Source: Acetomicrobium hydrogeniformans (GTDB lineage Bacteria > Synergistota > Synergistia > Synergistales > JAFGMB01). Taken from it: 64,000 nt of DNA. The position numbers were made by a program, and so were the translations under genes. The stretch is taken from the NCBI GenBank assembly GCA_016841745.1, contig JAENYO010000003.1, positions 360,287 to 424,286 of the forward strand, written 5' to 3'. Shown piece after piece: positions 51,392 through 64,000 of the stretch. Below the pieces are notes generated by a model, which was given only the letters and a program-made list of their open reading frames with translations, was not told where the DNA came from and did not search any database. The number at the start of each line of letters is the position of its first letter. Within the stretch, counting starts at the first letter, position 1.

Positions 51392-51469
51392 GTATATATG
51401 ATCATAGAGTAATAAATATCTGTACACTTATGTAGTAATCTTTCTATGACAACGGTAGCTTTAAATACT

Positions 51470-51552
51470 TCGAAAAGGCAAAACCGTCGAGAGGCGGTGA
51501 CGCAAAGCCACGGGTCTAAGTCCAGAGGAATAGATAGCCGGGTTGCCGAAAA
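51470..51552 (+). ncRNA. Cyclic-di-GMP-I riboswitch (GEMM-I)
   Basis: The conserved skeleton is clear: GGCAAAACCG, then GGTGACGCAAAGCCACGGG, then GTCTAAG, and the closing AGATAGCCGGGTTGCCG. GGCAA (51477-51481) and TTGCC (51543-51547) form the base stem, and the GACGCAAAGCCACGGGTCTA core is near-identical to GEMM-I consensus. It lies upstream of a diguanylate cyclase gene and is followed by an intrinsic terminator. GCCGAA (51545-51550) can pair with TTCGGC (51579-51584) in the terminator's left arm, which suggests a ligand-controlled choice. Confidence 0.92.
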
Positions 51553-51575
51553 GTGCATATACAGGAAATTTATGC

Positions 51576-51605
51576 GCCTTCGGCCAGTTGCTGAAGGCTT
51601 TTTTT
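51576..51605 (+). terminator. Terminator acting as riboswitch expression platform
   Basis: GCCTTC (51576-51581) pairs with GAAGGC (51593-51598), followed by seven T. It stands between the riboswitch and the diguanylate cyclase start. Its left arm overlaps the stretch that can pair with the riboswitch base stem. Confidence 0.88.
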
Positions 51606-51619
51606 GTGGGGGGATATTT

Positions 51620-52975
51620 ATGCAGGAGTGGCAATCGGTAATTCATAACTCTTTAAACCATCAAGATGAACGATCTCTTATGAGTCCTGAATTCGTGGGA
51701 GCCCTTATATTTTCTTCAATAGGGATCTTTCTCCTTGCAAGGATCAACTTCCTTTTCTCTCATATTATTGTAGAGGGCTGGTCAATAATGGTGGCTATGC
51801 TTATCTATATCATTTCTGTAAGAACCTATAGATATTCCAGGGATAATATACTCTTTTTTCTGGGTCATGCTTATTGTGCGGTTGCTTTTCTAGATCTTAT
51901 CCATACCCTTGTCTACGAAGGCATGGGTGTTCTGCCCCTTTCGGGAACAGATATGGCAGCGCAGCTATGGATAAGCGCCCGTTACATTGAAGGGTTTTCT
52001 CTCTTGATCGTGCCTTTTATTGCTAAAAAAAGAATTACCAGACTCACATTAACCTGTGTTTTTGGTTTCATAATAATTACAGTTCTTGCCTCTATTTTCA
52101 AATGGAATATATTTCCCTCATGTTATATAGCTTCCGAAGGTCTTACACTTTTCAAGATACTGAACGAATACCTGATTTCTCTTATACTGCTTGCTGCCTT
52201 TATTGTGATCAGGCAGAAAAAAGATCTTACCTCCAGTGGATTGGTCAGGAAAGCCCTGCTTCTGTCAATTATCTTTACCATTGCCTCGGAGCTTTCTTTT
52301 ACCCTCTACAGGGATTCTTACGGATTAATGAATATTATGGGTCATATATTTAAACTGGTTTCATTTTACCTGATATATGAGGGGATCATCATATCTGGTC
52401 TGGATAATCCCTTTGACCGGATATTCAAACAGTTGAAAACAGCAACCATGAAGGATCCCCTGACAGGCCTTTACAACAGAATAGGTCTAATGGAATTGTC
52501 CGAAGGGATGCTGGCCAGAGTTTCAAAGGAAGACCGTCCCATAGGCTGTCTGATGATCGATATGGATAATTTCAAGTCCATCAACGACCGGTTTGGCCAT
52601 AGTATTGGTGACCACGTTATCCAGCAGATGGGGCTTCTTCTCCTCAAGATATGCAGAAAGAGCGATATAGTAGCCAGGATAGGAGGGGACGAATTTCTCG
52701 TTTTCACTTCTATTGACGGGCAAGGGCTCCAATCTCTGGAGAAGAGGATCACTATGGAGTTTCATAACTGGTTCAGTGAAACCAGTTTTGCGCGGATCCT
52801 CGACATAAGTATTGGTTCTGTTCTAAAAGAACAGGTTTCCTTTCCTGAAGTATCCATAGACAGATTGATCATGGAAGCGGACCTTGAAATGTATCGCCAC
52901 AAGGAGTCCAAAAAGAAAAGTTCAGAAAAAGCTGGAGTGATGTGTACCAATAAAGCTGTAACCATAACAGTGTAG
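51620..52975 (+). CDS. MASE3-GGDEF diguanylate cyclase
   Basis: A 451-residue membrane enzyme making cyclic di-GMP. The N-terminal 260 residues contain about eight helices of the MASE3 sensor type (LDLIHTLVYEGMG, QLWISARYIEGFSLL). The GGDEF domain (about 280-440) has DPLTGLYNRIGL, IDMDNFKSINDRFGH and an intact ARIGGDEFLVF. RKSD lies exactly five residues before GGDEF, an inhibitory I-site. The frame extends upstream to 51446 but that runs through the riboswitch; GTGGGGGG before ATG 51620 fixes the start. Two levels of feedback by the product are therefore likely: at the RNA and at the enzyme. Confidence 0.93.
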   Translation: MQEWQSVIHNSLNHQDERSLMSPEFVGALIFSSIGIFLLARINFLFSHIIVEGWSIMVAMLIYIISVRTYRYSRDNILFFLGHAYCAVAFLDLIHTLVYEGMGVLPLSGTDMAAQLWISARYIEGFSLLIVPFIAKKRITRLTLTCVFGFIIITVLASIFKWNIFPSCYIASEGLTLFKILNEYLISLILLAAFIVIRQKKDLTSSGLVRKALLLSIIFTIASELSFTLYRDSYGLMNIMGHIFKLVSFYLIYEGIIISGLDNPFDRIFKQLKTATMKDPLTGLYNRIGLMELSEGMLARVSKEDRPIGCLMIDMDNFKSINDRFGHSIGDHVIQQMGLLLLKICRKSDIVARIGGDEFLVFTSIDGQGLQSLEKRITMEFHNWFSETSFARILDISIGSVLKEQVSFPEVSIDRLIMEADLEMYRHKESKKKSSEKAGVMCTNKAVTITV

Positions 52976-52993
52976 ACGAAAGCATAACGTGTT

Positions 52994-53587
52994 TTAATTG
53001 TTAATTATCACAGTTTTTCTCATAAGGATCCTTACTTCTTCAAGCATTTTCTCTCGTTCTTCCGTTGTAACAGCGGGAACGGCATATAGAAAATGCTGAA
53101 GTAGAACTTCCATTCCGCAAAATCTGAAGATCCCTTCACAGATACATTTTCGAAAGGCATCTCCGTATCCGTAATTATCATAGGCCTCACTGCTGCCTCC
53201 TGTAGTATTGAAGATGGCCACCTTTTTACCTTCCAGGAGGCCTGAAACACTCTTTTCTGTGATTTCGAAAGCAAAACCTGCAGAAAAAACCCTGTCCGTA
53301 TATCCCTTCAGAATTGCTGGCATGCTGAACCACCATACCGGAAAAATGAAGATAAGCATATCCGCTTCGGAAACCATTTTCTGCTCCAGGACGATATCTT
53401 CAGAAGGTGTCCCTGTTCGAAGGGCTTCAATGTCGGAATTTACAAGTACCGGATCAAAGGATTCAGCGTAAAGGTCTGTTATTTCATAATCTGCTCCTGC
53501 ATGCTCGAGCTCTTCCATTACCGCTTCCAGGACTGCATGGTTGAAGCTTTTCGGGTTTGGATGGGTGTATATTACACGATATTTCAT
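52994..53587 (-). CDS. Flavodoxin-fold NAD(P)H:quinone oxidoreductase
   Basis: A 197-residue enzyme of the KefF/MdaB/NQO family that reduces quinones or other acceptors with two electrons, using FMN or FAD. YTHPNPKSFNHAVL near 8 is the phosphate loop; PVWWFSMPAILKGYTDRVF near 83 is the diagnostic block; TTGGSSEAYDNYGYG near 128 follows. GGAGGATAGGGC upstream of the ATG supports the start. It is convergent with the cyclase gene with little space between. A general redox or detoxification role is likely. Confidence 0.9.
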   Translation of the reverse strand: MKYRVIYTHPNPKSFNHAVLEAVMEELEHAGADYEITDLYAESFDPVLVNSDIEALRTGTPSEDIVLEQKMVSEADMLIFIFPVWWFSMPAILKGYTDRVFSAGFAFEITEKSVSGLLEGKKVAIFNTTGGSSEAYDNYGYGDAFRKCICEGIFRFCGMEVLLQHFLYAVPAVTTEEREKMLEEVRILMRKTVIINN

Positions 53588-53741
53588 GCCCTATCCTCCT
53601 TGCATAGTGTTATCAGGTTAAATAGATATTATCTTTACTATATGTTAACATAATTATGAGGTATACCCTAGGGCGTAATACTGTTTTGGTGTAAAATATC
53701 CCGATGATCAGGTTTGTTTCAGAGGAGGTTCAGTTATCAGA

Positions 53742-54983
53742 ATGATCGCTATAAATTCAGAAAGATTGAAAAGATCCCTCGAAGAAATGGGGGAGATAGG
53801 ACTAAATGATCCCGGTGCGGGCAGGACCCGTCTGACTCTGAGTCAGGAGGACCGCGAGGGCCGGAACCTTTTCGTTCGTTGGCTTGAAGAGGCTGGATTG
53901 CAGGTATGCCTGGACCCTGTGGGTAATATATGGGGAATTAGGCAGGGAAGGGATATGAAGGCTAAACCAGTTATGGCCGGATCCCATCTCGATACTGTTA
54001 AAAATGCCGGGATGTTTGATGGGGCCCTTGGAGTACTGGCCGCCCTTGAGGTTATAAGGACCCTCAATGACCACGGTATACGTACAGAAAAACCCCTTGC
54101 TGTAGCCGCTTTTACTAACGAGGAAGGTGCCCGTTTTCAGCCCGACATGATGGGAAGCATGTTCGCTGCAGGATTGCTGGACCTGGAAAGAGCACTGGGT
54201 TCCATGGATGATGACCATGTTACAGTAGGGATGGCTCTCGAAGAAACGGGCTATTCGGGTAATGACAGACTGGAAGCTTCCGCATACCTTGAACTTCATG
54301 TAGAACAGGGGCCTGTCCTTCACCGAGAGGGTATGGATATAGGCATTGTCCAGGGAATCCAGGGAATAGCCTGGTGGTATGGAACCTACAAAGGGGAGGC
54401 TAATCATGCTGGGACAACACCTCTTGAGTACCGGAAAGACAGCCTTCTTGCTGCAGCTGAATTATGCTGTGAGCTGAGAAAGCTTGCCGAAGAACTTGGT
54501 AATGATACCAGGTCGACCGTTGGAAGGCTTCACCCCCTTCCTGATGTAGTTAACGTTATTCCTGCAGAAACCTGGTTCACCATTGATTTTCGCCAATACG
54601 ATAAAAAGCTCTTCGAAAGTGGTAAAGAAAAGGTAGAGAGCCTGGTGGCGAAAATAGCAGAAAAACATGGTCTTGATTTCCAGCTGGAACAGAGAGTAGA
54701 TGCCCTCCCCATACGGTTTCCACTTTCTATGGTTCATCTAGTGGAGAGGGTTGCCAGAAAAAGCGGTTGCAGTTACATGAACCTGCCCAGTGGTGCCGGG
54801 CATGATGCTCAGTTCATGCATCGCCTGTGCCCGACAGCCATGATCTTTGTTCCTTCGATCGGGGGGCGAAGTCACTGTCCCGAGGAGAGCACGGACTGGA
54901 AAGATGTTGATCGGGGTGCAGATGTTCTTCTCAAGTCAATGCTCGAGCTGGCAGGCTTGGTTTATGAGGGGACAGGAGTATAA
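53742..54983 (+). CDS. M20 family N-carbamoyl-L-amino acid hydrolase / allantoate amidohydrolase-like
   Basis: A 413-residue zinc hydrolase of the HyuC/AllC branch of M20. Metal and substrate motifs are GSHLDTVKNAGMFDGALGVL near 80, FTNEEGARFQPDMMGS near 123, YLELHVEQGPVL near 185, and GAGHDAQFMHRLCPTAMIF near 350 with SHCPEE near 376. AGGAGG lies 13 bases before ATG 53742, a little far, but no nearer canonical start exists. It releases an amino acid from a carbamoyl or amide substrate; the exact substrate is open. The short gene following is three bases away. Confidence 0.88.
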   Translation: MIAINSERLKRSLEEMGEIGLNDPGAGRTRLTLSQEDREGRNLFVRWLEEAGLQVCLDPVGNIWGIRQGRDMKAKPVMAGSHLDTVKNAGMFDGALGVLAALEVIRTLNDHGIRTEKPLAVAAFTNEEGARFQPDMMGSMFAAGLLDLERALGSMDDDHVTVGMALEETGYSGNDRLEASAYLELHVEQGPVLHREGMDIGIVQGIQGIAWWYGTYKGEANHAGTTPLEYRKDSLLAAAELCCELRKLAEELGNDTRSTVGRLHPLPDVVNVIPAETWFTIDFRQYDKKLFESGKEKVESLVAKIAEKHGLDFQLEQRVDALPIRFPLSMVHLVERVARKSGCSYMNLPSGAGHDAQFMHRLCPTAMIFVPSIGGRSHCPEESTDWKDVDRGADVLLKSMLELAGLVYEGTGV

Positions 54984-54985
54984 CA

Positions 54986-55237
54986 ATGCCTCAGTGGAGC
55001 ATAGAAGTGATAACGGACCGTAAACTGGATCCTGACGCCATGGTACTTTTCAGTATGGTACCCCTGGAAGAGGAAAGGAAAAGTATTCAGGCGGGAAAAG
55101 ATTTCTGGGAAGATGTGAAAAAGAAAATATTGAAAAAGATCAGGCTTTACAATATGCCTTCAAGTGTTGTGGAGGCATATATAAGGGATGCCAGGAAAAA
55201 TCCAGGCAACAGAATAGCCCTTTTACTCAAATATTGA
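54986..55237 (+). CDS. Hypothetical 83-residue protein
   Basis: A small soluble protein from ATG 54986 with AGGAG eight bases upstream, two bases after the hydrolase stop, so translated with it. Mixed alpha/beta pattern with a basic helix (DVKKKILKKIRLYNMPSS). It lies 19 bases before the aldo/keto reductase gene. No family recognised. Confidence 0.72.
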   Translation: MPQWSIEVITDRKLDPDAMVLFSMVPLEEERKSIQAGKDFWEDVKKKILKKIRLYNMPSSVVEAYIRDARKNPGNRIALLLKY

Positions 55238-55256
55238 CCTGAAGGAGTGTGAAAAT

Positions 55257-56399
55257 ATGCTTTTTAGAACCATGAAAAGATCTGAGGACAAGCTTTCCAT
55301 ACTTGGTTTTGGATGCATGCGATTCCCCCTTCTTGGAAATGATCCGGAAAATATTGATGAAGCCGAAGCGATCAGAATGATCCGTTATGCCATAGATAAT
55401 GGTGTAAATTATATTGATACTGCCTGGCCTTACCACAATGAAAAAAGTGAGCCCCTTGTCGGCCGCGCCCTCCAGGATGGATATCGGGAAAGGATATTCC
55501 TTGCCACCAAGCTTCCCACATGGATGATCAGATCCAGGGAAGATATGGACTTTTACCTCAATGAACAGCTGAAAAAAATTCAGACTGATCATGTAGATTA
55601 CTATATGATCCATGGACTGACAAAGGATAGATGGTCAAGGGTCTTGGATCTTGGTGTTTTCGACTTTATCGAAAAGGCAAAGGCCGACGGCAGGATAAGG
55701 CATATAGGGTTTTCCTTCCATGACCAGCTTCGTGTTTTCAAGGAGATCGTCGATGCCTATCCCTGGAATTTCTGCCAGATCCAGTACAACTACATGGACG
55801 AGAACTATCAGGCCGGAACGGAAGGCTTGAAATATGCGGTATCAAAGGATCTGGGAGTTATCATAATGGAGCCCCTCAGGGGCGGCCATCTTGTCAGAAA
55901 CCAGCCCGAGGATGTCCGGAAGATATGGAATGAGAGTAATGAAAAGGTATCTCCAGCCAATTGGGGTCTGAGATGGGTATGGAACCACCCGGAGGTGACT
56001 CTTTTGCTTAGCGGTATGTCCACCATGGAACAGGTGGAGGATAATATCAGGGCTTCTGAGAAGGGGGTAGCTGAGAGTCTTACTGAAAAAGAAATGGAAA
56101 TGATCTCGAGGGTCAGGGATATATACCGGGACAGAATGAGAGTACCCTGCACCAACTGCCGTTACTGTATGCCATGTCCCGCAGGGGTGAATATCCCTGA
56201 ATGTTTTAATCGCCTCAACATGGCTTACATGTTCGAAGATCCGGAGAATGCAAAAAATACCTATAACATTTTTCTCAGAGCTGGAGGAAAGGCATCAGCC
56301 TGTATCGAATGCGGACAGTGTGAATCCCTCTGTCCCCAGCACATAAGCATAAGGGAACATCTCAAGGAAACTGTGACTCTCTTCGAAAGTGATGAATAG
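55257..56399 (+). CDS. Aldo/keto reductase with C-terminal ferredoxin-type clusters
   Basis: A 380-residue aldo/keto reductase. The catalytic tetrad can be placed in DTAWPYHN (Asp, Tyr), FLATKLP (Lys) and YMIHGL (His). The C-terminal 90 residues carry two Cys clusters, CTNCRYCMPCPAGV and CIECGQCESLCPQHI, for iron-sulfur centres. Fusions of this kind are common in anaerobes and may use ferredoxin-linked chemistry. AAGGAGTG before the ATG. It forms an operon with the carbamoylase-type hydrolase and the 83-residue protein. Confidence 0.92.
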   Translation: MLFRTMKRSEDKLSILGFGCMRFPLLGNDPENIDEAEAIRMIRYAIDNGVNYIDTAWPYHNEKSEPLVGRALQDGYRERIFLATKLPTWMIRSREDMDFYLNEQLKKIQTDHVDYYMIHGLTKDRWSRVLDLGVFDFIEKAKADGRIRHIGFSFHDQLRVFKEIVDAYPWNFCQIQYNYMDENYQAGTEGLKYAVSKDLGVIIMEPLRGGHLVRNQPEDVRKIWNESNEKVSPANWGLRWVWNHPEVTLLLSGMSTMEQVEDNIRASEKGVAESLTEKEMEMISRVRDIYRDRMRVPCTNCRYCMPCPAGVNIPECFNRLNMAYMFEDPENAKNTYNIFLRAGGKASACIECGQCESLCPQHISIREHLKETVTLFESDE

Positions 56400-56753
56400 T
56401 CTGAATCGATATGACAAAGCCGGGCTTCAGTGTCCGGCTTTGCGGACTTTAAAAGAGATGATATTTTGTTTTATAAGATATGCAGAATGATTTTTCTTGA
56501 ACCCCCAAAATTTCCTTCCGCCATTTGTGAATTCTCATCATTTCCTGCTTCTGTTCTGCTCAGGATCATACAGACTGATTTTAAATACTTTCGGGACTTC
56601 AGAAAATATTTGATTAAAAGTCTCTACAGCAGTTTTCAGGCCCGAAATTGTTGTAGAGCGAACTCTTTCAGAAAATTAACATAACCGTTATGTTCCATCA
56701 GATCCCCGAGGGGATTCTTTTCTGAAGAACTATTGAGACTGGAGATGTCAAGT
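56400..56753 (+). other. Intergenic region
   Basis: About 350 bases. AAAGCCGG (56416-56423) pairs with CCGGCTTT (56434-56441) and may end the aldo/keto reductase transcript. The 84-residue frame at 56430-56684 lacks a ribosome site and overlaps this hairpin, so it is not annotated. Confidence 0.45.
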
Positions 56754-57323
56754 TTGAAAAATTTCTTTGAAAGAAACCGAAGCAGGCTCACCTGGATCAT
56801 TATCCTTCCAGTTTTATTAATATTGACCATTTCGCCAATTAGCGATAAATCTTTTTATGATCCCTATCTCGAATATTTGGGATTCTTCTTCCTGATGGTG
56901 GCATCCATCGGACGGATATGGACCTCCCTTTTCATCTGCGGCCGTAAGGACACCGAACTGGTGAAAGACGGTCCTTTTTCCATCTGCAGGAACCCTCTGT
57001 ATCTTTTTTCGTTTATCGGCGGGGTTGGGTTAATGTTTGCCGGCCAGAATCTGGCCCTTGCAGGATTGATGGTACCCTTATTCTGGGGTTACTATCATTT
57101 TGTGATAAAGGGGGAAGAAAAAAGACTTCAGGAGTTATTTGGTGAGGACTATATTGAATATTCTCGAAGGACCCCGAGGGTCATTCCCAGGTTCTTCCTC
57201 TATCGTTCCCCTTCAGAAGTCACGATCAACATCAGAACTATGGAGATATCTATTATGGATGCAAGCTGTTTTCTCCTGATGATCGTGTTCATTGAAATTC
57301 TCGAGCAGATAAAGATGCACTGA
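56754..57323 (+). CDS. Isoprenylcysteine carboxyl methyltransferase-like membrane protein
   Basis: About 189 residues of the ICMT/PEMT-like membrane methyltransferase superfamily. About four helices; the C-terminal SAM region shows VKDGPFSICRNPLYLFSFIG near 75 (the G-P-x-x-x-x-R-N-P-x-Y motif), and EEKRLQELFGEDYIEYSRRTPRVIP near 120 in parts (the E-E-x-x-L-x-x-x-F-G-x-x-Y-x-x-Y motif). Substrates of bacterial members are mostly unknown. The start is uncertain: GGAG (56741-56744) fits TTG 56754; ATG 56745 and TTG 56733 are in frame. An extra C-terminal helix is seen. Confidence 0.8.
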   Translation: MKNFFERNRSRLTWIIILPVLLILTISPISDKSFYDPYLEYLGFFFLMVASIGRIWTSLFICGRKDTELVKDGPFSICRNPLYLFSFIGGVGLMFAGQNLALAGLMVPLFWGYYHFVIKGEEKRLQELFGEDYIEYSRRTPRVIPRFFLYRSPSEVTINIRTMEISIMDASCFLLMIVFIEILEQIKMH

Positions 57324-57685: not shown

Positions 57686-57714
57686 TTGACAACCTCTGAA
57701 AAAAACAGGATAAT
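57686..57714 (+). promoter_or_regulatory. Promoter of the epimerase-racemase-dehydrogenase unit
   Basis: TTGACA (57686-57691), exact 17-base spacer, GATAAT (57709-57714). Predicted start near 57721. The same -35, spacer length and -10 recur before the cluster's GntR gene. Confidence 0.88.
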
Positions 57715-57740
57715 CAGCCTTGAGATAATAATGCATACAT

Positions 57741-57758
57741 CCATGTATTCATACATGG
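57741..57758. promoter_or_regulatory. Palindromic operator candidate of the cluster
   Basis: CCATGTATTCATACATGG is a perfect 8-2-8 palindrome about 20 bases after the predicted transcription start. It contains TGAATACAT on the minus strand, a motif also present at 61025-61033 and 61741-61749. GTAT/ATAC half-sites suit FCD-type GntR proteins, one of which is encoded in the cluster. Confidence 0.75.
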
Positions 57759-57790
57759 CCTCGATAAAGTTCGTTAAAGGAGGTGAAACA

Positions 57791-58750
57791 ATGAAAGGCA
57801 TTTGCCTTGATTATGTCAGGGGGCATATGGGTGGAAATACAATTTCTCTTTTTTCTGGAGAGCAGTTTACCCCTGGAAAGGAACTGGAGGAGGCTTTGAT
57901 AGCTCTGGATGAAAAACACATCTTTTCAGATGAAGCTGCCATAATTTATCCTTCAGGTAAAGAAAAGACTTTAAAGATCAAAATCGTAAGTCCAACAACA
58001 AAAAGGTTTATAACTGCCTGTGGAGGCATGACCCAGGTTTTGGGAAAAGCCATGGGCGAGTCATACCTGGGAGAGAGATTCGGTTTTTCTTCCTTTGACA
58101 CCCATCAGGAAATCTTTTTAGACCTTGATGGAGGTAACCATAGAATAGATATTTTCAAGTCAGGCGACAAAGTATTTCGTACGATAACAAAAATGGATAT
58201 TTTTGCAGAAGAGCTTTATTCCTCCGGGATAGAGGAAATGTTGGTTATGGATATACAGGTATTTCGTGTTGGCAAGTTCCTGGTAGTTAACGCAGATGAA
58301 ATTAAAAAAGCTTTTCCTGTATTGGACCTGGAAAAAATGGATCCGGCATCAAAGAATATCCTTTTTGAATTACAGGAAAAGGCCATGTCTTTTAATAGAG
58401 CTATTGGTCTTGATTATGCTGTTTATGATTGGAATTGCTCTCACAAAGGAGATCTAAGGGCCGTATTCCCTCATTATATTCCAGACGATCATATTGAACC
58501 TTCGTGCGGGACAGGGACTGTTGCCATAGGGGTTGCAACTGCCTGGAACGGAGAACTCCGAAAGAATCTTTCTGGAGATCTTTCAGATGCAAAGATCGTT
58601 AATCTTGCTTTTGAAACTGGGGGAGCGAAAAATCTGGGCGGTCCGGAACTTTCTAACCTCTCATTTTCTGTTGTCGGTAATAAATTAACTGATATCTATT
58701 TTCACCACAGTTTAGTGGAATTAACTTCTCAAGGAAAAATATTTATATAA
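57791..58750 (+). CDS. DapF/PrpF-fold epimerase or isomerase
   Basis: A 319-residue protein of the diaminopimelate epimerase / PhzF / PrpF fold. Two pseudo-symmetric halves each offer a Cys: FITACGGMTQVLGKA near residue 75 and EPSCGTGTVAIGVATAW near 238, the usual pair of acid/base thiols. GHMGGNTISLF near 10 corresponds to the N-terminal substrate loop. The frame extends to 57686, but that TTG is the -35 box; AAAGGAGGTG before ATG 57791 decides the start. It is not a normal DapF by sequence, so it probably epimerises or isomerises a different substrate within this cluster. Confidence 0.8.
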   Translation: MKGICLDYVRGHMGGNTISLFSGEQFTPGKELEEALIALDEKHIFSDEAAIIYPSGKEKTLKIKIVSPTTKRFITACGGMTQVLGKAMGESYLGERFGFSSFDTHQEIFLDLDGGNHRIDIFKSGDKVFRTITKMDIFAEELYSSGIEEMLVMDIQVFRVGKFLVVNADEIKKAFPVLDLEKMDPASKNILFELQEKAMSFNRAIGLDYAVYDWNCSHKGDLRAVFPHYIPDDHIEPSCGTGTVAIGVATAWNGELRKNLSGDLSDAKIVNLAFETGGAKNLGGPELSNLSFSVVGNKLTDIYFHHSLVELTSQGKIFI

Positions 58751-58800
58751 AATGGATGCTTCTTTGAGAAGATATTTTTTTATCACAGGAGGACTAATTA

Positions 58801-59511
58801 ATGGGAAACGATAGTTTACCCAGGATAGGCATTCTGGCATGGGAAGGTGGACTTGTTCCTCCAGGTCTTATGCAGCTGGAAAAGCTGAAGGGGAACAGTA
58901 CCAATCTGGAATCTTACGATTATCCAGTCCAGATAAGGCGAGTAGAAGGTGCCAGTGCAGAAAGCATCGTCATCAACCCGGATGAAACAGTATTGCAGAG
59001 GATGGTTTCTCTAATGAAGGAAATGATAGCAGAAGGCGTAAAAGCTATCACAACCAGTTGCGGTTTTAATGCTATCCACCAGAAAAGACTGGCCGATTCT
59101 GTAAACGTTCCTGTTTTTACTTCGAGTCTCATGCAGATACCTTTTGTGTTGAGGACCTTAAAGAAAGGACAGTCCGTGGCTGTTATTACGGCGAGAAAAG
59201 CAAGTCTTACTCCACTTCATTTCCAGAACTGCGGTATTGCTGATCTTGCCCCAGTTCATATTATAGGTATGGAAGAATGGGAAGAATGGGGGAAAGTGTT
59301 GGATTCCAAGGTTCCAGGAGTGGATATGGGACTTATTGAGAAGGAAATAATCGAGGCAGGTCTACTGGCAAAAAAACAGTATCCTGATGTAGGGGCTTTT
59401 GTCCTTGAATGCACGGATATGCCGCCCTTTTCAAAGGCTATACGGAGTGCGACAGGTCTCCCTGTATTCGATTTTATTACTCTTGTTAACTACGTGAATC
59501 AGGCGGTCTGA
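58801..59511 (+). CDS. Asp/Glu racemase superfamily protein
   Basis: A 236-residue protein with the two catalytic-type Cys of cofactor-free racemases: ITTSCGFNAI near 82 and VLECTDMPPF near 202. Members racemise Asp, Glu or hydantoins, or act as isomerases and decarboxylases. AGGAGG before the ATG, 50 bases after the epimerase. Together with its neighbours it suggests stereochemical handling of an amino acid or amino-diacid substrate. Confidence 0.86.
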   Translation: MGNDSLPRIGILAWEGGLVPPGLMQLEKLKGNSTNLESYDYPVQIRRVEGASAESIVINPDETVLQRMVSLMKEMIAEGVKAITTSCGFNAIHQKRLADSVNVPVFTSSLMQIPFVLRTLKKGQSVAVITARKASLTPLHFQNCGIADLAPVHIIGMEEWEEWGKVLDSKVPGVDMGLIEKEIIEAGLLAKKQYPDVGAFVLECTDMPPFSKAIRSATGLPVFDFITLVNYVNQAV

Positions 59512-59591
59512 TGTAGAACCTTTAAAGGATTATCCTGGTTAAAGAACGAATTCTTTATGGCAGACTGTTAAATTCAGGAGGAGGTATTTTT

Positions 59592-60923
59592 TTGAAAGAG
59601 ATTCTTGTTCTTGGTGCAGGAAGAGTAGCCCGGCCATGTGTTCAGTACCTTTTGAAAGAGCCGGGATACCATGTGACAGTGGTGGATCTGAAGGAGGAAA
59701 ATCTTGTTCATGTCATTGGCGGTCACCCGCGAGGGAAGGGTATTGTGGGAAACGCGGGTAGTGAATCTGAATTGCTTATGGACAAGCTTAACCCTGATCT
59801 TGTAGTGAACCTCCTCCCCGCATCATTTATGAAACAGATTGCCGAACAATGTATAGAAAGAGCTATTCCTACGGTAAATCCTTCTTATATTGATGAGGAA
59901 ACTAGACTTCTTGATACAAAAGCCAGACAAGCAGGGGTGACAATCCTTTGTGAACTTGGACTTGATCCTGGAATAGATCATATGTCAGCTGTAAAAACTA
60001 TAAGAAAGATCCATGATGAAGGTGGAAAGATAGAGTCCTTCTGGTCAGTTTGCGGAGCCATTCCTTCAGCAAAGGATAATACGAATCCCATGGGATACAA
60101 ACTTTCCTGGGCTCCAGCTGGCCTTATCGGGGCAAGTAAGAGGGATGCCAGATTTCTCAGGAATGGTAAGGAAGTATTGCTTCCCGGAGGAGAAACCTTT
60201 AAGTATTCAGATCTTATCGAAGTAGAAGACCTTGGCTGTTTCGAGGTTTACGCAAATGGCAATTCTCTTCCCTATCTTGATATGTACGGTATTAAAGAAG
60301 CAAAAAGTATTTACAGAGGAACAGTCCGTTATCTTGGGTGGAGCGAGACCATTTGCACGATGCTCGAAATGGGTCTTTTTGAAGAAACCAGGATGGAACT
60401 TTCCGGTCTGACCTACAGGGATTTTTCTGCAAAACTTCTTGAAGCTTCCTCCAGAGATAGTTTTGAGGAAATCTTATGCAAAAAATTAAACATAGAGCCC
60501 TACATGGCCATTTATCAGAGATTGAAATGGCTTGGACTCTTTTCAGATGAATTAATCCCAATGGAGCATGGCAGTCCAAGAGATGTTATCTCCAGGTTAT
60601 ATTTTGATAAACTATATTATCAGAAATCCGAAAAGGATCTTGTAATAATGGAGCACAGATTCCTTTCTTATTACCCGGTTTCAGGAAAGAGAGTATTACA
60701 TAAGTCAACCATGGTGGATTATGGTATTCCTGGAGAGGATACTTCTGTTGCTAGAACTACAGGTATTCCTCCGGCAATAGGTGCAAAACTTATTCTTGAG
60801 GAAAGATTCTCAAGTCCGGGTGTTGTCGGTCCCTTTTCCCCAGATATATATGAGTTAGCCCTTGAAGAACTGGAAACAGAAAACATCCTTTTCAAGGAAA
60901 AAGAAGAGCTGATCTGTAATTAA
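59592..60923 (+). CDS. Saccharopine dehydrogenase-like protein A
   Basis: A 443-residue oxidoreductase of the saccharopine dehydrogenase (glutamate-forming, LYS9-like) family. ILVLGAGRVARPCVQYLL at the N-terminus is the NAD(P) site; NLLPASFMKQIAEQCIERAIPTVNPSY lies near 75 in parts; CELGLDPGIDHMSAVKTI near 118 is the family block; GTVRYLGWSETI near 240 and GIPPAIGAKLILEE near 388 follow. It would split or form a secondary-amine amino acid (opine) with glutamate or a similar partner. TTG start with GGAGG upstream. It follows the racemase gene by 80 bases and differs strongly from the second homologue at 61791. Confidence 0.88.
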   Translation: MKEILVLGAGRVARPCVQYLLKEPGYHVTVVDLKEENLVHVIGGHPRGKGIVGNAGSESELLMDKLNPDLVVNLLPASFMKQIAEQCIERAIPTVNPSYIDEETRLLDTKARQAGVTILCELGLDPGIDHMSAVKTIRKIHDEGGKIESFWSVCGAIPSAKDNTNPMGYKLSWAPAGLIGASKRDARFLRNGKEVLLPGGETFKYSDLIEVEDLGCFEVYANGNSLPYLDMYGIKEAKSIYRGTVRYLGWSETICTMLEMGLFEETRMELSGLTYRDFSAKLLEASSRDSFEEILCKKLNIEPYMAIYQRLKWLGLFSDELIPMEHGSPRDVISRLYFDKLYYQKSEKDLVIMEHRFLSYYPVSGKRVLHKSTMVDYGIPGEDTSVARTTGIPPAIGAKLILEERFSSPGVVGPFSPDIYELALEELETENILFKEKEELICN

Positions 60924-60978
60924 GGGGACCGGGAAATTAATGTCGAACGCTATCAGGTAATTTCCTGACTATGTATTA

Positions 60979-61007
60979 TTGACAAAGCAGTTCAACTGAC
61001 AGATAAT
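60979..61007 (+). promoter_or_regulatory. Promoter of the GntR gene
   Basis: TTGACA (60979-60984), exact 17-base spacer, GATAAT (61002-61007): the same pair as before the epimerase gene. Predicted start near 61014. Confidence 0.88.
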
Positions 61008-61024
61008 TTAGGAAATTCGATATC

Positions 61025-61045
61025 TGAATACATCTATGAATGCAT
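61025..61045. promoter_or_regulatory. Operator candidate before the GntR gene
   Basis: TGAATACAT (61025-61033) and TGAATGCAT (61037-61045) form a 12-bp-phased pair just after the predicted start. They match the half of the palindrome at 57741-57758, so autoregulation is plausible. Confidence 0.6.
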
Positions 61046-61058
61046 TGAAAGGCAGAAA

Positions 61059-61709
61059 ATGAACAAAAACACAGAAAACTCGGAAGAAAGAGCCTATAGA
61101 TCTATCGTTGAATTGATATTGACCAACGAGTACAAGCCTGGAGATTTTTTGCTTGAAGTTGAGCTGTCTTCAAAACTGAATATGAGCCGTACTCCTGTGA
61201 GCCGGGCTTTAGCAAGGCTTGTGACAGAGGGTTTTCTTGAGCGGATGAAAAAAAAGGGTTGCTTTATTCCGTTACCCACAGCTGACGATGCCAAACAGGT
61301 TTTTTTTGCAAGGGAAGCTGTAGCGAGTTATGTCGCTTCAGCGGCGGCTCTTAATGCCACGAAAGAAGACATTGCGAAATTGAGAAATGTCGTAAAAAGA
61401 GAAAAGGAAGCATTCCTTTCTAAGAATAAAGGAGAAGAGGCTAAACTGAATGAAGCTTTTCACCTGGGTCTGGCGCAGCTATCAGGAAATCAATATCTTC
61501 AAAAATGCTGTAGAAACCTTTTCTGGCGGTCAAATGTATATATATTCTATTTTGACAGCTTCTACAGGGATGCAGAGATGCCCCAGTTGACTCCCCTTCA
61601 GCATAACGAGATCCTCGATGCTATAGAAGCGAAGGATTCTGAACTGGCTTCTGAATTGATGTGTAAGCATATTCGGAGAACATACGAGATGCTTATAAAA
61701 ATGCGGTAA
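61059..61709 (+). CDS. GntR family regulator (FCD subfamily)
   Basis: A 216-residue regulator. Winged helix in residues 8-75 (LLEVELSSKLNMSRTPVSRALARL and GFLERMKKKGCFI); FCD domain in the rest (FFAREAVASYVASAAALNAT, NEAFHLGLAQLSGNQYL, QHNEILDAIEAKD, LMCKHIRRTYEML), with the His and Asp/Glu positions that bind metal in many FCD proteins. It lies between the two saccharopine-dehydrogenase-like genes with its own promoter, and is the likely regulator of the cluster. Confidence 0.92.
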   Translation: MNKNTENSEERAYRSIVELILTNEYKPGDFLLEVELSSKLNMSRTPVSRALARLVTEGFLERMKKKGCFIPLPTADDAKQVFFAREAVASYVASAAALNATKEDIAKLRNVVKREKEAFLSKNKGEEAKLNEAFHLGLAQLSGNQYLQKCCRNLFWRSNVYIFYFDSFYRDAEMPQLTPLQHNEILDAIEAKDSELASELMCKHIRRTYEMLIKMR

Positions 61710-61740
61710 ATACTACTGCATTTTTTTTGACCATTAGAAA

Positions 61741-61750
61741 TGAATACATT
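61741..61750. promoter_or_regulatory. Operator-like motif before the second dehydrogenase gene
   Basis: TGAATACATT recurs here, 41 bases before the start of the second dehydrogenase. TTGACC (61727-61732) upstream might be a -35 box, but no good -10 follows, so promoter placement is open. Confidence 0.5.
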
Positions 61751-61790
61751 AAAAAATTCATAAAAGAATTCATAGAGGAGGTATGTGACT

Positions 61791-63017
61791 TTGAACGGGA
61801 AAAAGGTAGTTATTCTTGGTTATGGTATGCAGGGACAGGCAGCTTTGTACGACCTTGTGAACAGAACCCATGTTTCAGAAATTATAGTGGCTGACAACAG
61901 ATCAGATCTTGAGGTGTTGTTGAAACAATACCCATCTGAACGAGTTAAATCCTCTAAGCTTGATGCTAGTGATAAAGGGCAACTATCGAAATTGATGGAA
62001 GGTGCAGATGTTGTTCTTGAATTTCTTCCAGGGAAATTTGCGTTTTCTACTGGGCTGCTTGCTGCGGAACTGGGTGTAAATCTGGTCAGCAGTATGTATT
62101 ACGTTAATCCGGGAGAGGAAGATAAAACCAAAGTATCCGGGCAGAGGAAAGCCCTTGCCGAACTTGACAGAAAGGCAAAGGAAAAAGGTATTACTATTCT
62201 GACAGAATTTGGGATGGATCCCGGTCTTGACCTTGTGCTTGGATCAAAGGCTTTATCAGAGTTTGATGAAGTTTCGGAATTTTATTCCTATGGTGCCGGA
62301 TTCCCTGCTCCGGAGGTTGAAGATAATCCACTAAAGTACAAGTTTACATGGTCAATTATCGGAGTTATGCTTTCCTACCTTCGTCCTGCAAAAATAATAT
62401 CAGGTGGAAAAACTTTGGAAGTAGCGGCCAGAGACATGTTTTCCAGGGAAAACATGCACCATCTTGACATTCCCGAGATCGGGAGAACCCTGGAGTGTTT
62501 CCCCAATGGAAATACACAACACTATGCGGAGTTATTTGGTCTAAAAGGGACTATACGCGAAATGGGACGTTACATCTGCCGCTGGGAGGGTCACGGTGCA
62601 TTCTGGGAAGCAATGGCCAAGAGCGGTTTCCTTGATCAGAAACCTGTCAAGGTCGGGAATACATCTGTGGTACCTGCAGAATTCTGTGCCTCCCTCTTAG
62701 CTTCTCAGGACCAGTTTTACTACAAAAAGGACGAACAGGATATGGCTCTGGTAAGGATGGATGTAAGAGGGAAAGCAGAAGGAAAGAAAAAAAGAGTTAC
62801 CTATCAGCTGATCGACAGGCGGGATCTCGCAACCGGTTTTACAGCAATGCAGAGAACCGTAGGTTTTACGGCCAGCATAGGAGCTCAGCTGATCCTTGAT
62901 GGAAAATTCAATAGACCAGGAGTTGCATTACCTATTGATGTTCCCTTTGACCTTGTCGAAAAAGAGGTAGAGGTTCGTGGTATGTCCATCATCAGGGAAG
63001 AATTTCCCTGGGATTAA
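61791..63017 (+). CDS. Saccharopine dehydrogenase-like protein B
   Basis: A 408-residue homologue of LYS9-type saccharopine dehydrogenase. VVILGYGMQGQAALYDLVNR is the NAD(P) motif at the N-terminus. TILTEFGMDPGLDLVLGSKAL near 138 (in parts) is the same family block as in protein A, and FTWSIIGVMLSYLRPAKII and GFTASIGAQLILDGKF follow. GTG 61785 is only three bases from the GGAGGT box; TTG 61791 has normal spacing and is preferred. Two divergent homologues in one cluster suggest two steps, or two substrates, rather than gene dosage. Confidence 0.88.
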   Translation: MNGKKVVILGYGMQGQAALYDLVNRTHVSEIIVADNRSDLEVLLKQYPSERVKSSKLDASDKGQLSKLMEGADVVLEFLPGKFAFSTGLLAAELGVNLVSSMYYVNPGEEDKTKVSGQRKALAELDRKAKEKGITILTEFGMDPGLDLVLGSKALSEFDEVSEFYSYGAGFPAPEVEDNPLKYKFTWSIIGVMLSYLRPAKIISGGKTLEVAARDMFSRENMHHLDIPEIGRTLECFPNGNTQHYAELFGLKGTIREMGRYICRWEGHGAFWEAMAKSGFLDQKPVKVGNTSVVPAEFCASLLASQDQFYYKKDEQDMALVRMDVRGKAEGKKKRVTYQLIDRRDLATGFTAMQRTVGFTASIGAQLILDGKFNRPGVALPIDVPFDLVEKEVEVRGMSIIREEFPWD

Positions 63018-63108
63018 TACATAGTTCCCGAAATATGGGAGGAAAGATCTTCGATATTTGCAGGCTCCGAAATTCGTAAGAGATGGAAAATATTTGATAT
63101 AGGGAGGG

Positions 63109-63138
63109 TTGACATTTTTTTTTAGGGGGGGGAATAGA
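63109..63138 (+). promoter_or_regulatory. Promoter candidate with a homopolymer spacer
   Basis: TTGACA (63109-63114) is followed at once by nine T, one A and eight G (63115-63132), then AATAGA in the -10 position with an 18-base spacer. The -10 is poor. Slippage in either tract would change spacer length. Confidence 0.45.
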
Positions 63139-63191
63139 AACAGAAATATGCTGTAGCTATAGCCTGAAAAATCTAAAGGGGAGGTATGATC

Positions 63192-64000
63192 ATGGAAATT
63201 GAAGGGACTTTTGGAATTCTTTCGATGTTGCCGGTAGTTCTTGCTCTTGTACTCGCTTTTTGGACCAAAGATGCAGTTTTTTCTCTTATGATAGGATGCC
63301 TGACTGGAGTAGTGCTTGCTGGCTTTGATCCTGCAACGGGCCTGAAGAAGCTGTTCCTGACAGCTTTGGGCAATGGTGACTTTATCTGGGTTATGATGAT
63401 TGAGGTTGCTGTCGGGATAATGATAGCCCTTTATCTGAGGGCTGGAGTGATAACAGCTTTTACAGAGTGGGCTTCAACGAAGATAAGGACCAGGAGGGCT
63501 GCTTCCGGATTCGGTTGGCTTTTAGGGATCTTTGTGTTCTTCAGCGATTATTTCAGCCCCCTGTTCAGCGGGCCCATAGCCAGGCCTCTTACAGATAAGT
63601 ACAAAGTCTCGAGGGAAATGCTTGCCTATGAACTTGACTCTGGAAGTGCACCGGTCTGTACTCTCATTCCTTTAAGCGGCTGGGCAGTATACATTGCCGG
63701 TCTTTTGGTCGGATATGGTCCAATTACAACCGTTGAGGAAGGAATGGGTTTATTTATCAAGGCCATTCCCTTCAACTTTTACGGATGGTTTGCAGTTATT
63801 CTTTGCGGACTTATTGCCTGGCAGGTCATTCCTAACTTTGGCCCCATGAGAACGGCTGAATTAAGGGCAAAAAATGAAGGGAAAGTTCTCCGCGATGGGG
63901 CTTCACCTCTTACTGGGGAAGAAATGGATGATATCAAAGCGCTTCAAGGCAAGAAAACAAATCTTCTCTTTTTCCTTGTCTTCCCTGTACTTATAGTCAT
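63192..64000 (+). CDS. NhaC-family sodium/proton antiporter-like transporter (partial)
   Basis: The first 269 residues of a membrane transporter that runs off the right edge. Several helices are seen, with LVLAFWTKDAVFSLMIGCLTGVVLAG near residue 18 in parts, FSDYFSPLFSGPIARPLTDKY near 120 and DSGSAPVCTLIPLSGWAVYI near 152. These are typical of NhaC and related ion-coupled amino acid carriers. GGGGAGG lies seven bases before ATG 63192 (ATG 63186 is too close). As the last gene of the cluster seen, it probably imports the substrate or exchanges it for product; the family name does not prove sodium/proton exchange. Confidence 0.85.
   Translation, partial: MEIEGTFGILSMLPVVLALVLAFWTKDAVFSLMIGCLTGVVLAGFDPATGLKKLFLTALGNGDFIWVMMIEVAVGIMIALYLRAGVITAFTEWASTKIRTRRAASGFGWLLGIFVFFSDYFSPLFSGPIARPLTDKYKVSREMLAYELDSGSAPVCTLIPLSGWAVYIAGLLVGYGPITTVEEGMGLFIKAIPFNFYGWFAVILCGLIAWQVIPNFGPMRTAELRAKNEGKVLRDGASPLTGEEMDDIKALQGKKTNLLFFLVFPVLIV

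Follow-up and report, generated by a model that had tools for sequence, protein, structure and literature searches.

A candidate GntR-controlled module for diamino-acid catabolism in Acetomicrobium hydrogeniformans and other Synergistota

At the 3' end of a 64,000-nucleotide stretch of the Acetomicrobium hydrogeniformans genome (the window), six genes on the + strand encode a DapF-like protein, a two-cysteine racemase-like protein (Rac), two saccharopine-dehydrogenase-like enzymes (SDH1 and SDH2), a GntR-family regulator and an NhaC-family carrier. All six had been grouped in an original prediction made from the sequence alone, and all are present among the open reading frames of the window. 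The gene content is conserved in relatives, the cluster has a shared promoter and operator architecture, both racemase-like proteins have their catalytic cysteine pairs, and both dehydrogenases have a distinctive residue pattern. From these we infer the substrate class, the catabolic direction, the order of the steps and the pairing of regulator with operator. Because a carrier, one or two racemases, one or two side-chain-amine dehydrogenases and a GntR repressor fit the breakdown of D/L-diamino acids, we read the cluster, with about even confidence, as a GntR-controlled module that degrades such an acid or an opine-like, N-substituted form of it. Our literature search found no description of this gene set.

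Conservation and common control of the cluster

We searched for the cluster in 188 Synergistota genomes and in 392 genomes that include about 204 from other phyla. With at least 60% identity required, 18 Synergistota genomes, spread over 14 genera and 6 families, carry the cluster NhaC. At most 10 kb away from it are Rac (15 of the 18 genomes), SDH1 (13), SDH2 (13) and the DapF-like gene (7), the clusters of G122 and G128 being broken by contig ends in these counts. Rac adjoins or is near SDH1 in most genomes with a cluster-type Rac. Since the same genes recur together in 14 genera, in genomes of about 2,500 genes each, the grouping is beyond chance; we estimate random adjacency at well under 1% per pair per genome. 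The original prediction had hinged on whether the neighbourhood is kept in relatives, and the genes do stay together, with a common operator. At E <= 1e-80, SDH2 was not found in the roughly 204 genomes outside Synergistota, and a single-sequence SDH1 query against GTDB contigs returned one locus only.

The six genes form two transcription units with near-identical promoters, the two strongest matches of the region, and the palindrome ATnCATnnATGnAT stands 3' of each (Table 1). Across the whole 3.04-Mb genome the operator pattern occurs in just these two places, both at the cluster promoters, and a reversed control pattern gives zero matches. The common control signals of the original prediction are thus borne out; its start at 57686 is not, falling on the TTG of the -35 box TTGACA, while the first gene begins at the ATG at 57791, preceded by AAAGGAGGTGAAACA. 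The same operator lies about 30-50 bases 5' of SDH2 and/or GntR in G122, G010, G009, G165, G128 and G183 (loci L079, L084, L086, L092, L097 and L099), and 79 bases 5' of an opine-dehydrogenase gene in G170 (L173). It was not found in the clusters of some relatives, e.g., G142. Given its position and its uniqueness in the genome, the palindrome is the predicted binding site of the cluster's GntR, and this pairing would make the two transcription units one regulon with a common operator. In nine loci, Rfam gathering scores revealed neither a lysine riboswitch nor any other RNA element controlling the cluster. A T-box leader (L175:14256-14497) is present in one relative's neighbourhood, 5' of a non-cluster gene.

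The order of the genes and their company vary between species. The full order GntR-SDH2-DapF-NhaC-Rac-SDH1 is seen in G180, G010 and G009, and other genomes have a second unit of simpler make-up, GntR'-NhaC'-SDH1. Past the end of the window, the A. hydrogeniformans genome (G000) continues with a DcuC/YfcC-type carrier, an octopine-family dehydrogenase (ODH; Octopine_DH, PF02317; L003:11437-12528, 2.5 kb beyond NhaC), an M20 hydrolase and an MFS carrier. The G170 cluster reads GntR-ODH-NhaC-Rac-AlaDH-like-SDH1 (AlaDH, alanine dehydrogenase), and its opine dehydrogenase, 57% identical to that of the window genome, takes the usual place of SDH2 behind the operator. In two relatives, G128 and G133, Rac-SDH1 precedes genes for an ornithine-racemase-like protein and an alanine dehydrogenase; G128 additionally has a class IV aminotransferase and a CuyB-type racemase there. 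G142 has homologs of alanine dehydrogenase, M20 and YfcC beside NhaC. As alternates, the opine dehydrogenase, the alanine dehydrogenase and the ornithine-racemase-like protein fit the same diamino-acid reading. In G022, two copies of a YhgA-like transposase gene between GntR and SDH2 (L089:5099-7515) interrupt an otherwise intact cluster. At another locus (L098:3122-5494), near the second SDH1 copy of the genome concerned, a tandem pair of 320-amino-acid genes with identical beginnings stands beside transposase-like genes.

These variants also bear on a simpler scheme, which we consider unlikely though worth keeping in view: a module for D-alanine or other small neutral D-amino acids, in which NhaC would import the substrate, Rac would convert it to the L form, alanine or another amino-acid dehydrogenase would deaminate it, and the SDHs would be redeployed amine or amino-acid dehydrogenases. 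A 4,032-base record from Vescimonas coprocola (L135, NZ_AP023419.1) holds NhaC, alanine dehydrogenase and a Rac homolog and nothing else; the three are also together in G142 and G133, and alanine dehydrogenase scores above the TIGR00518 cut-off in G142 and G128. However, most clusters, that of the window included, are without alanine dehydrogenase, and SDH1 retains the recognition residues for a long diamino acid. The Vescimonas record is a circular "plasmid" with no annotated replication gene; it may be an assembly circle or else a minimal element for catabolism.

Family placement and active sites of the enzymes

Both dehydrogenases have the Sacchrp_dh_NADP and Sacchrp_dh_C domains and a three-domain fold. 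In our tree, the SDH1 clade is sister to the eukaryotic saccharopine dehydrogenases, SDH2 makes up a separate clade, and lysine dehydrogenase belongs to neither. The AlphaFold model of SDH2 (pLDDT 93.1) has Lys9-type enzymes as its nearest structures, followed by lysine dehydrogenase. The lysine dehydrogenase PH1688 clusters with other SDH-like genes of these genomes and apart from SDH1 and SDH2, on long branches that leave its exact position unsure. The octopine dehydrogenase domain PF02317 was not found in SDH1 or SDH2; locally, only the neighbouring ODH has it. Elsewhere, the window genome has a further candidate locus for amino acids (L112:8462-9751, G000:C8), where a lysine-dehydrogenase-like member of the saccharopine dehydrogenase family adjoins an ABC transporter and two ornithine-cyclodeaminase-like paralogs are nearby.

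Residues that hold the substrate have been described for related enzymes. In saccharopine reductase, Arg224 and Tyr78 bind the glutamate carboxylate and Asp126 pairs with Arg243 (PMC6264447). In human AASS, Arg703 and Arg726 are the main saccharopine holders, binding two carboxylates (PMC13174811), and we mapped them to Arg224 and Arg247 by their equal 23-residue spacing. In a model of lysine 6-dehydrogenase, R242 binds the lysine carboxylate while H181, Y238 and T240 bind the alpha-amine (PMC6697735); by spacing, R242 and T240 correspond to Arg247 and Thr245. In our joint alignment, all 21 SDH1 sequences have Ala or Gly at 224 and a residue other than Tyr (mostly Ala or Pro) at 78, and all 21 retain Asp126, Arg243, Thr245 and Arg247. 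In all 18 SDH2 sequences position 224 is Gly and position 78 is not Tyr; they retain Arg243 and Arg247, with Asp126 in all but one (Glu), and have Ile or Val at 245, where Thr helps bind the lysine alpha-amine. Tyr78 and Arg224 are thus missing in 39 of 39 family members, and the yeast, Magnaporthe, human and bacterial Aureibacter controls have all five ligands. A Rhizobium plasmid gene of 33% identity likewise has Gly at the Arg224 position, without other cluster genes nearby.

Because Tyr78 and Arg224 are lost and the lysine-side residues kept, SDH1 and SDH2 should still bind the amino-acid end of a diamino acid, and not glutamate as the departing amine. The pattern is compatible with ammonia or another small amine as the leaving group. 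We reject saccharopine dehydrogenase as the identity of either protein on the loss of the glutamate-carboxylate residues, and judged by alignment the name is unsuitable for both. Misnaming of bacterial "saccharopine dehydrogenases" has a published precedent in the carboxyspermidine enzymes (PMC10413350). Saccharopine itself, one of the substrates named in the original prediction, is disfavoured on the same residues. Literal saccharopine catabolism, with SDH1 forming glutamate and aminoadipate semialdehyde, would suit the sister relationship of SDH1 to the eukaryotic enzymes and its full-length profile alignment to yeast Lys9 (344 bits), but the two glutamate-carboxylate ligands described for the reductase (PMC6264447) are replaced in every SDH1 and SDH2, and saccharopine breakdown requires no racemase; we regard it as improbable.

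Of the two racemase-like proteins, the DapF-like one matches no Pfam or NCBIfam family. The DapF models PF01678 and TIGR00652 are not matched by its family (best of 13 members, E = 0.047), and we reject DapF as its identity. Its AlphaFold model (pLDDT 91.6) nevertheless shares the DapF/proline-racemase fold claimed for it (Foldseek E down to 7e-15, identity 9-17%), and both catalytic cysteines of that cofactor-independent racemase fold, Cys77 and Cys239, are invariant in the 13-member alignment (A1). As modelled, it represents a new two-Cys family. The gene is optional, missing from about half of the clusters, and so cannot be central. In another Synergistota family it has as neighbours an aminotransferase and either one or two paralogs that are genuine DapF-family members (L080, L082, L088).

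Two further schemes draw on this protein. Salvage of diaminopimelate or cell-wall cross-links, in which epimerases would interconvert LL-, meso- and DD-forms and dehydrogenases would oxidise both amino ends, has some appeal, in that two epimerases and two dehydrogenases would match a symmetric substrate, the first protein has a DapF fold, and in the f10 genomes its gene stands beside genuine DapF paralogs and a DapE/ArgE-like hydrolase. However, the protein matches no DapF model and is often missing, and the SDH proteins lie outside the meso-diaminopimelate dehydrogenase family. The diaminopimelate-like substrate of the original prediction, a link that comes from the fold, is weakened, and we give such salvage a small chance. 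The second scheme is staphylopine-like biosynthesis of an opine-type metallophore by a DapF-like racemase, an opine-forming dehydrogenase and an MFS exporter. Among PDB entries the DapF-like profile is nearest in sequence to histidine racemase, opine dehydrogenase and MFS genes are close by, and zincophore clusters are accompanied by histidine racemases and MFS exporters (PMC7438024). Yet no nicotianamine-synthase-like gene was recognised among the genes scanned around the cluster, and the most conserved gene is for a carrier of the NhaC family rather than an ABC importer of metals. Regulators of the GntR/FCD type are, moreover, typical of catabolism, and we hold metallophore biosynthesis to be highly improbable.

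Rac, predicted as a two-Cys Asp/Glu racemase-like protein, scores 36.5 bits with Pfam Asp_Glu_race and 248.8 bits, above cut-off, with NCBIfam PRK07475, and its Cys87 and Cys204 are invariant among the relatives aligned. PRK07475 is the closest bacterial kin of the algal dimethylsulfoniopropionate (DMSP) lyase Alma1, and the bacterial homologs are reported to be without DMSP lyase activity (PMC10349084), for which reason we dropped that activity as a candidate. Rac is a putative racemase; since its relative Alma1 is a lyase, some lyase activity is possible instead. Many Synergistota genomes have a second Rac-like paralog (about 43% identity over most of its length; L213:9844-10584, G000:C14:193876-194496), whose neighbours looked different at the two loci read.

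Table 1. Features of the cluster, in positions of the window.
Feature	Position	Strand	Evidence
Promoter 1, TTGACA-17-GATAAT	57686..57714	+	11/12 matches
GntR-type operator 1, GCATACATCCATGTATTCAT, 3' of promoter 1	57733..57752	+	pattern match; kept in G122 (L079)
DapF-like gene, 319 amino acids; predicted two-Cys cofactor-independent racemase/epimerase fold, new family	57791..58750	+	Cys conservation, AlphaFold, Foldseek
Rac, two-Cys Asp/Glu-racemase-superfamily protein, NCBIfam subfamily PRK07475	58801..59511	+	profile score, Cys conservation
SDH1, sister to the eukaryotic Lys9/AASS saccharopine dehydrogenases; ligands of the glutamate carboxylate replaced, lysine-side Arg retained	59592..60923	+	tree, alignment
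Promoter 2, TTGACA-17-GATAAT	60979..61007	+	11/12 matches
GntR-type operator 2, GAATACATCTATGAATGCAT, 5' of regulator gene	61026..61045	+	pattern match
GntR/FCD-family regulator	61059..61709	+	GntR and FCD domains (Pfam, NCBIfam)
Third operator-like match, weak, 5' of SDH2	61742..61761	+	2 mismatches to pattern
SDH2, separate clade within saccharopine-dehydrogenase family	61785..63017	+	tree, predicted structure, alignment
NhaC-family carrier, 474 amino acids; cut by window end at 64000, gene end at about 64610 (L003:7473-8897)	63186..64000	+	Na_H_antiporter match, 140.7 bits (full gene, including the part beyond the window)

The genes upstream of the cluster (51446-57323) were not found near the cluster of the nearest relative, G122, and we excluded them; among them is a hydantoinase/carbamoylase-type amidase gene (53742-54983).

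A proposed route and its significance

Under diamino-acid catabolism, the substrate would be a lysine/ornithine-type diamino acid, D or mixed D/L, free or with a small opine-like N-substituent, brought in by NhaC. Rac, together with the DapF-like protein in some species, would invert the alpha-carbon by two-Cys proton transfer, giving an isomer acceptable to the dehydrogenases. SDH1 would then oxidise the carbon that bears the side-chain amine, yielding ammonia or a small amine and an alpha-amino semialdehyde, and SDH2, or the octopine-family dehydrogenase that replaces it, would perform a second amine oxidation or take a second isomer of the substrate. A metabolite would free GntR from the ATnCATnnATGnAT operators ahead of both units. 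Use of opines or D-amino acids, as originally predicted, stands in part: the general class is supported, the named substrates are not. An opine link is favoured by the ODH gene past NhaC and by its ortholog between GntR and NhaC in the G170 regulon, and a D-amino-acid link by the alanine dehydrogenase, ornithine-racemase-like protein or class IV aminotransferase beside Rac/SDH1 in relatives such as G128 and G133, by the CuyB-type racemase of G128, and by the grouping of NhaC, alanine dehydrogenase and Rac on the Vescimonas record.

Several points weigh against this reading. The main gap is an aldehyde dehydrogenase, absent from the core cluster even though the expected product of SDH1 is an aldehyde; just one genome (L215) has an aldehyde ferredoxin oxidoreductase close to SDH1. 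The Ile or Val at position 245 suggests that the substrate of SDH2 may differ from that of SDH1. Neighbours vary by species, so that different clusters may serve different substrates, and the YfcC-ODH-M20 stretch may be an insertion in the window genome, because G122 has the MFS gene directly after NhaC. The residue argument is alignment-based, and all enzyme activities are predicted.

A bolder version, which we offer tentatively and would rate below the general one, is a new Synergistota-centred anaerobic pathway for D-configured or N-carboxyalkylated diamino acids (e.g., opines, lysine glycation or cross-link products), with two new side-chain-amine dehydrogenase subfamilies derived from saccharopine dehydrogenase and a new cofactor-independent racemase family. 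Carboxymethyllysine, whose degradation by Cloacibacillus we considered as a published pathway for this gene set, found no gene-level support in the literature searched and is a candidate substrate only. Guts and digesters are home to Synergistota, which feed on amino acids there. If such a pathway exists, it bears on who removes glycated and heat-damaged lysine and on anaerobic turnover of opines and D-amino acids. The conserved residue change and the conserved regulon define two further saccharopine-dehydrogenase subfamilies with a predictable substrate class; the cluster also yields the candidate racemase family, and the GntR operator with its inducer offers a route to the substrate.

Comparison with known systems

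Some relatives resemble oxidative ornithine fermentation (ornithine racemase, aminomutase, thiolase) in having an alanine dehydrogenase and an ornithine-racemase-like protein next to Rac/SDH1, but ornithine aminomutase and thiolase were not recognised among the genes examined, and to our knowledge SDH1 and SDH2 are not part of that pathway. Among racemases, the DapF-like protein has its predicted fold and catalytic Cys pair in common with DapF, the histidine racemase HisR/CntK and the proline racemase superfamily; it differs in its low identity to the solved structures and in being without a curated family model. Rac belongs with PRK07475 by score and by its two catalytic cysteines (CGF and ECT motifs), a bacterial family of putative function related to the algal lyase Alma1. 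The PF02317 opine dehydrogenases, known to make or split N-carboxyalkyl amino acids, are not related to SDH1 and SDH2; the local member, of putative specificity, is adjacent in the window genome, and the family is inside the same regulon in G170.

For the SDHs themselves, L-lysine 6-dehydrogenase (Pyrococcus horikoshii PH1688; Geobacillus LysEDH), which releases ammonia, has the same fold, a small residue in place of Tyr78 and an Arg where the lysine carboxylate is bound. PH1688 is, however, in a separate clade, with Ala and Glu where SDH1 and SDH2 have Asp126 and Arg243. Among solved structures, SDH1, and by fold also SDH2, is closest to the L-glutamate-forming saccharopine dehydrogenases (yeast Lys9 and the SDH domain of human AASS), with full-length alignment and Asp126, Arg243 and Arg247 in common. 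In contrast to these enzymes, every SDH1 and SDH2 lacks Tyr78 and Arg224, and their genes accompany racemases and an NhaC carrier in place of lysine-ketoglutarate reductase.

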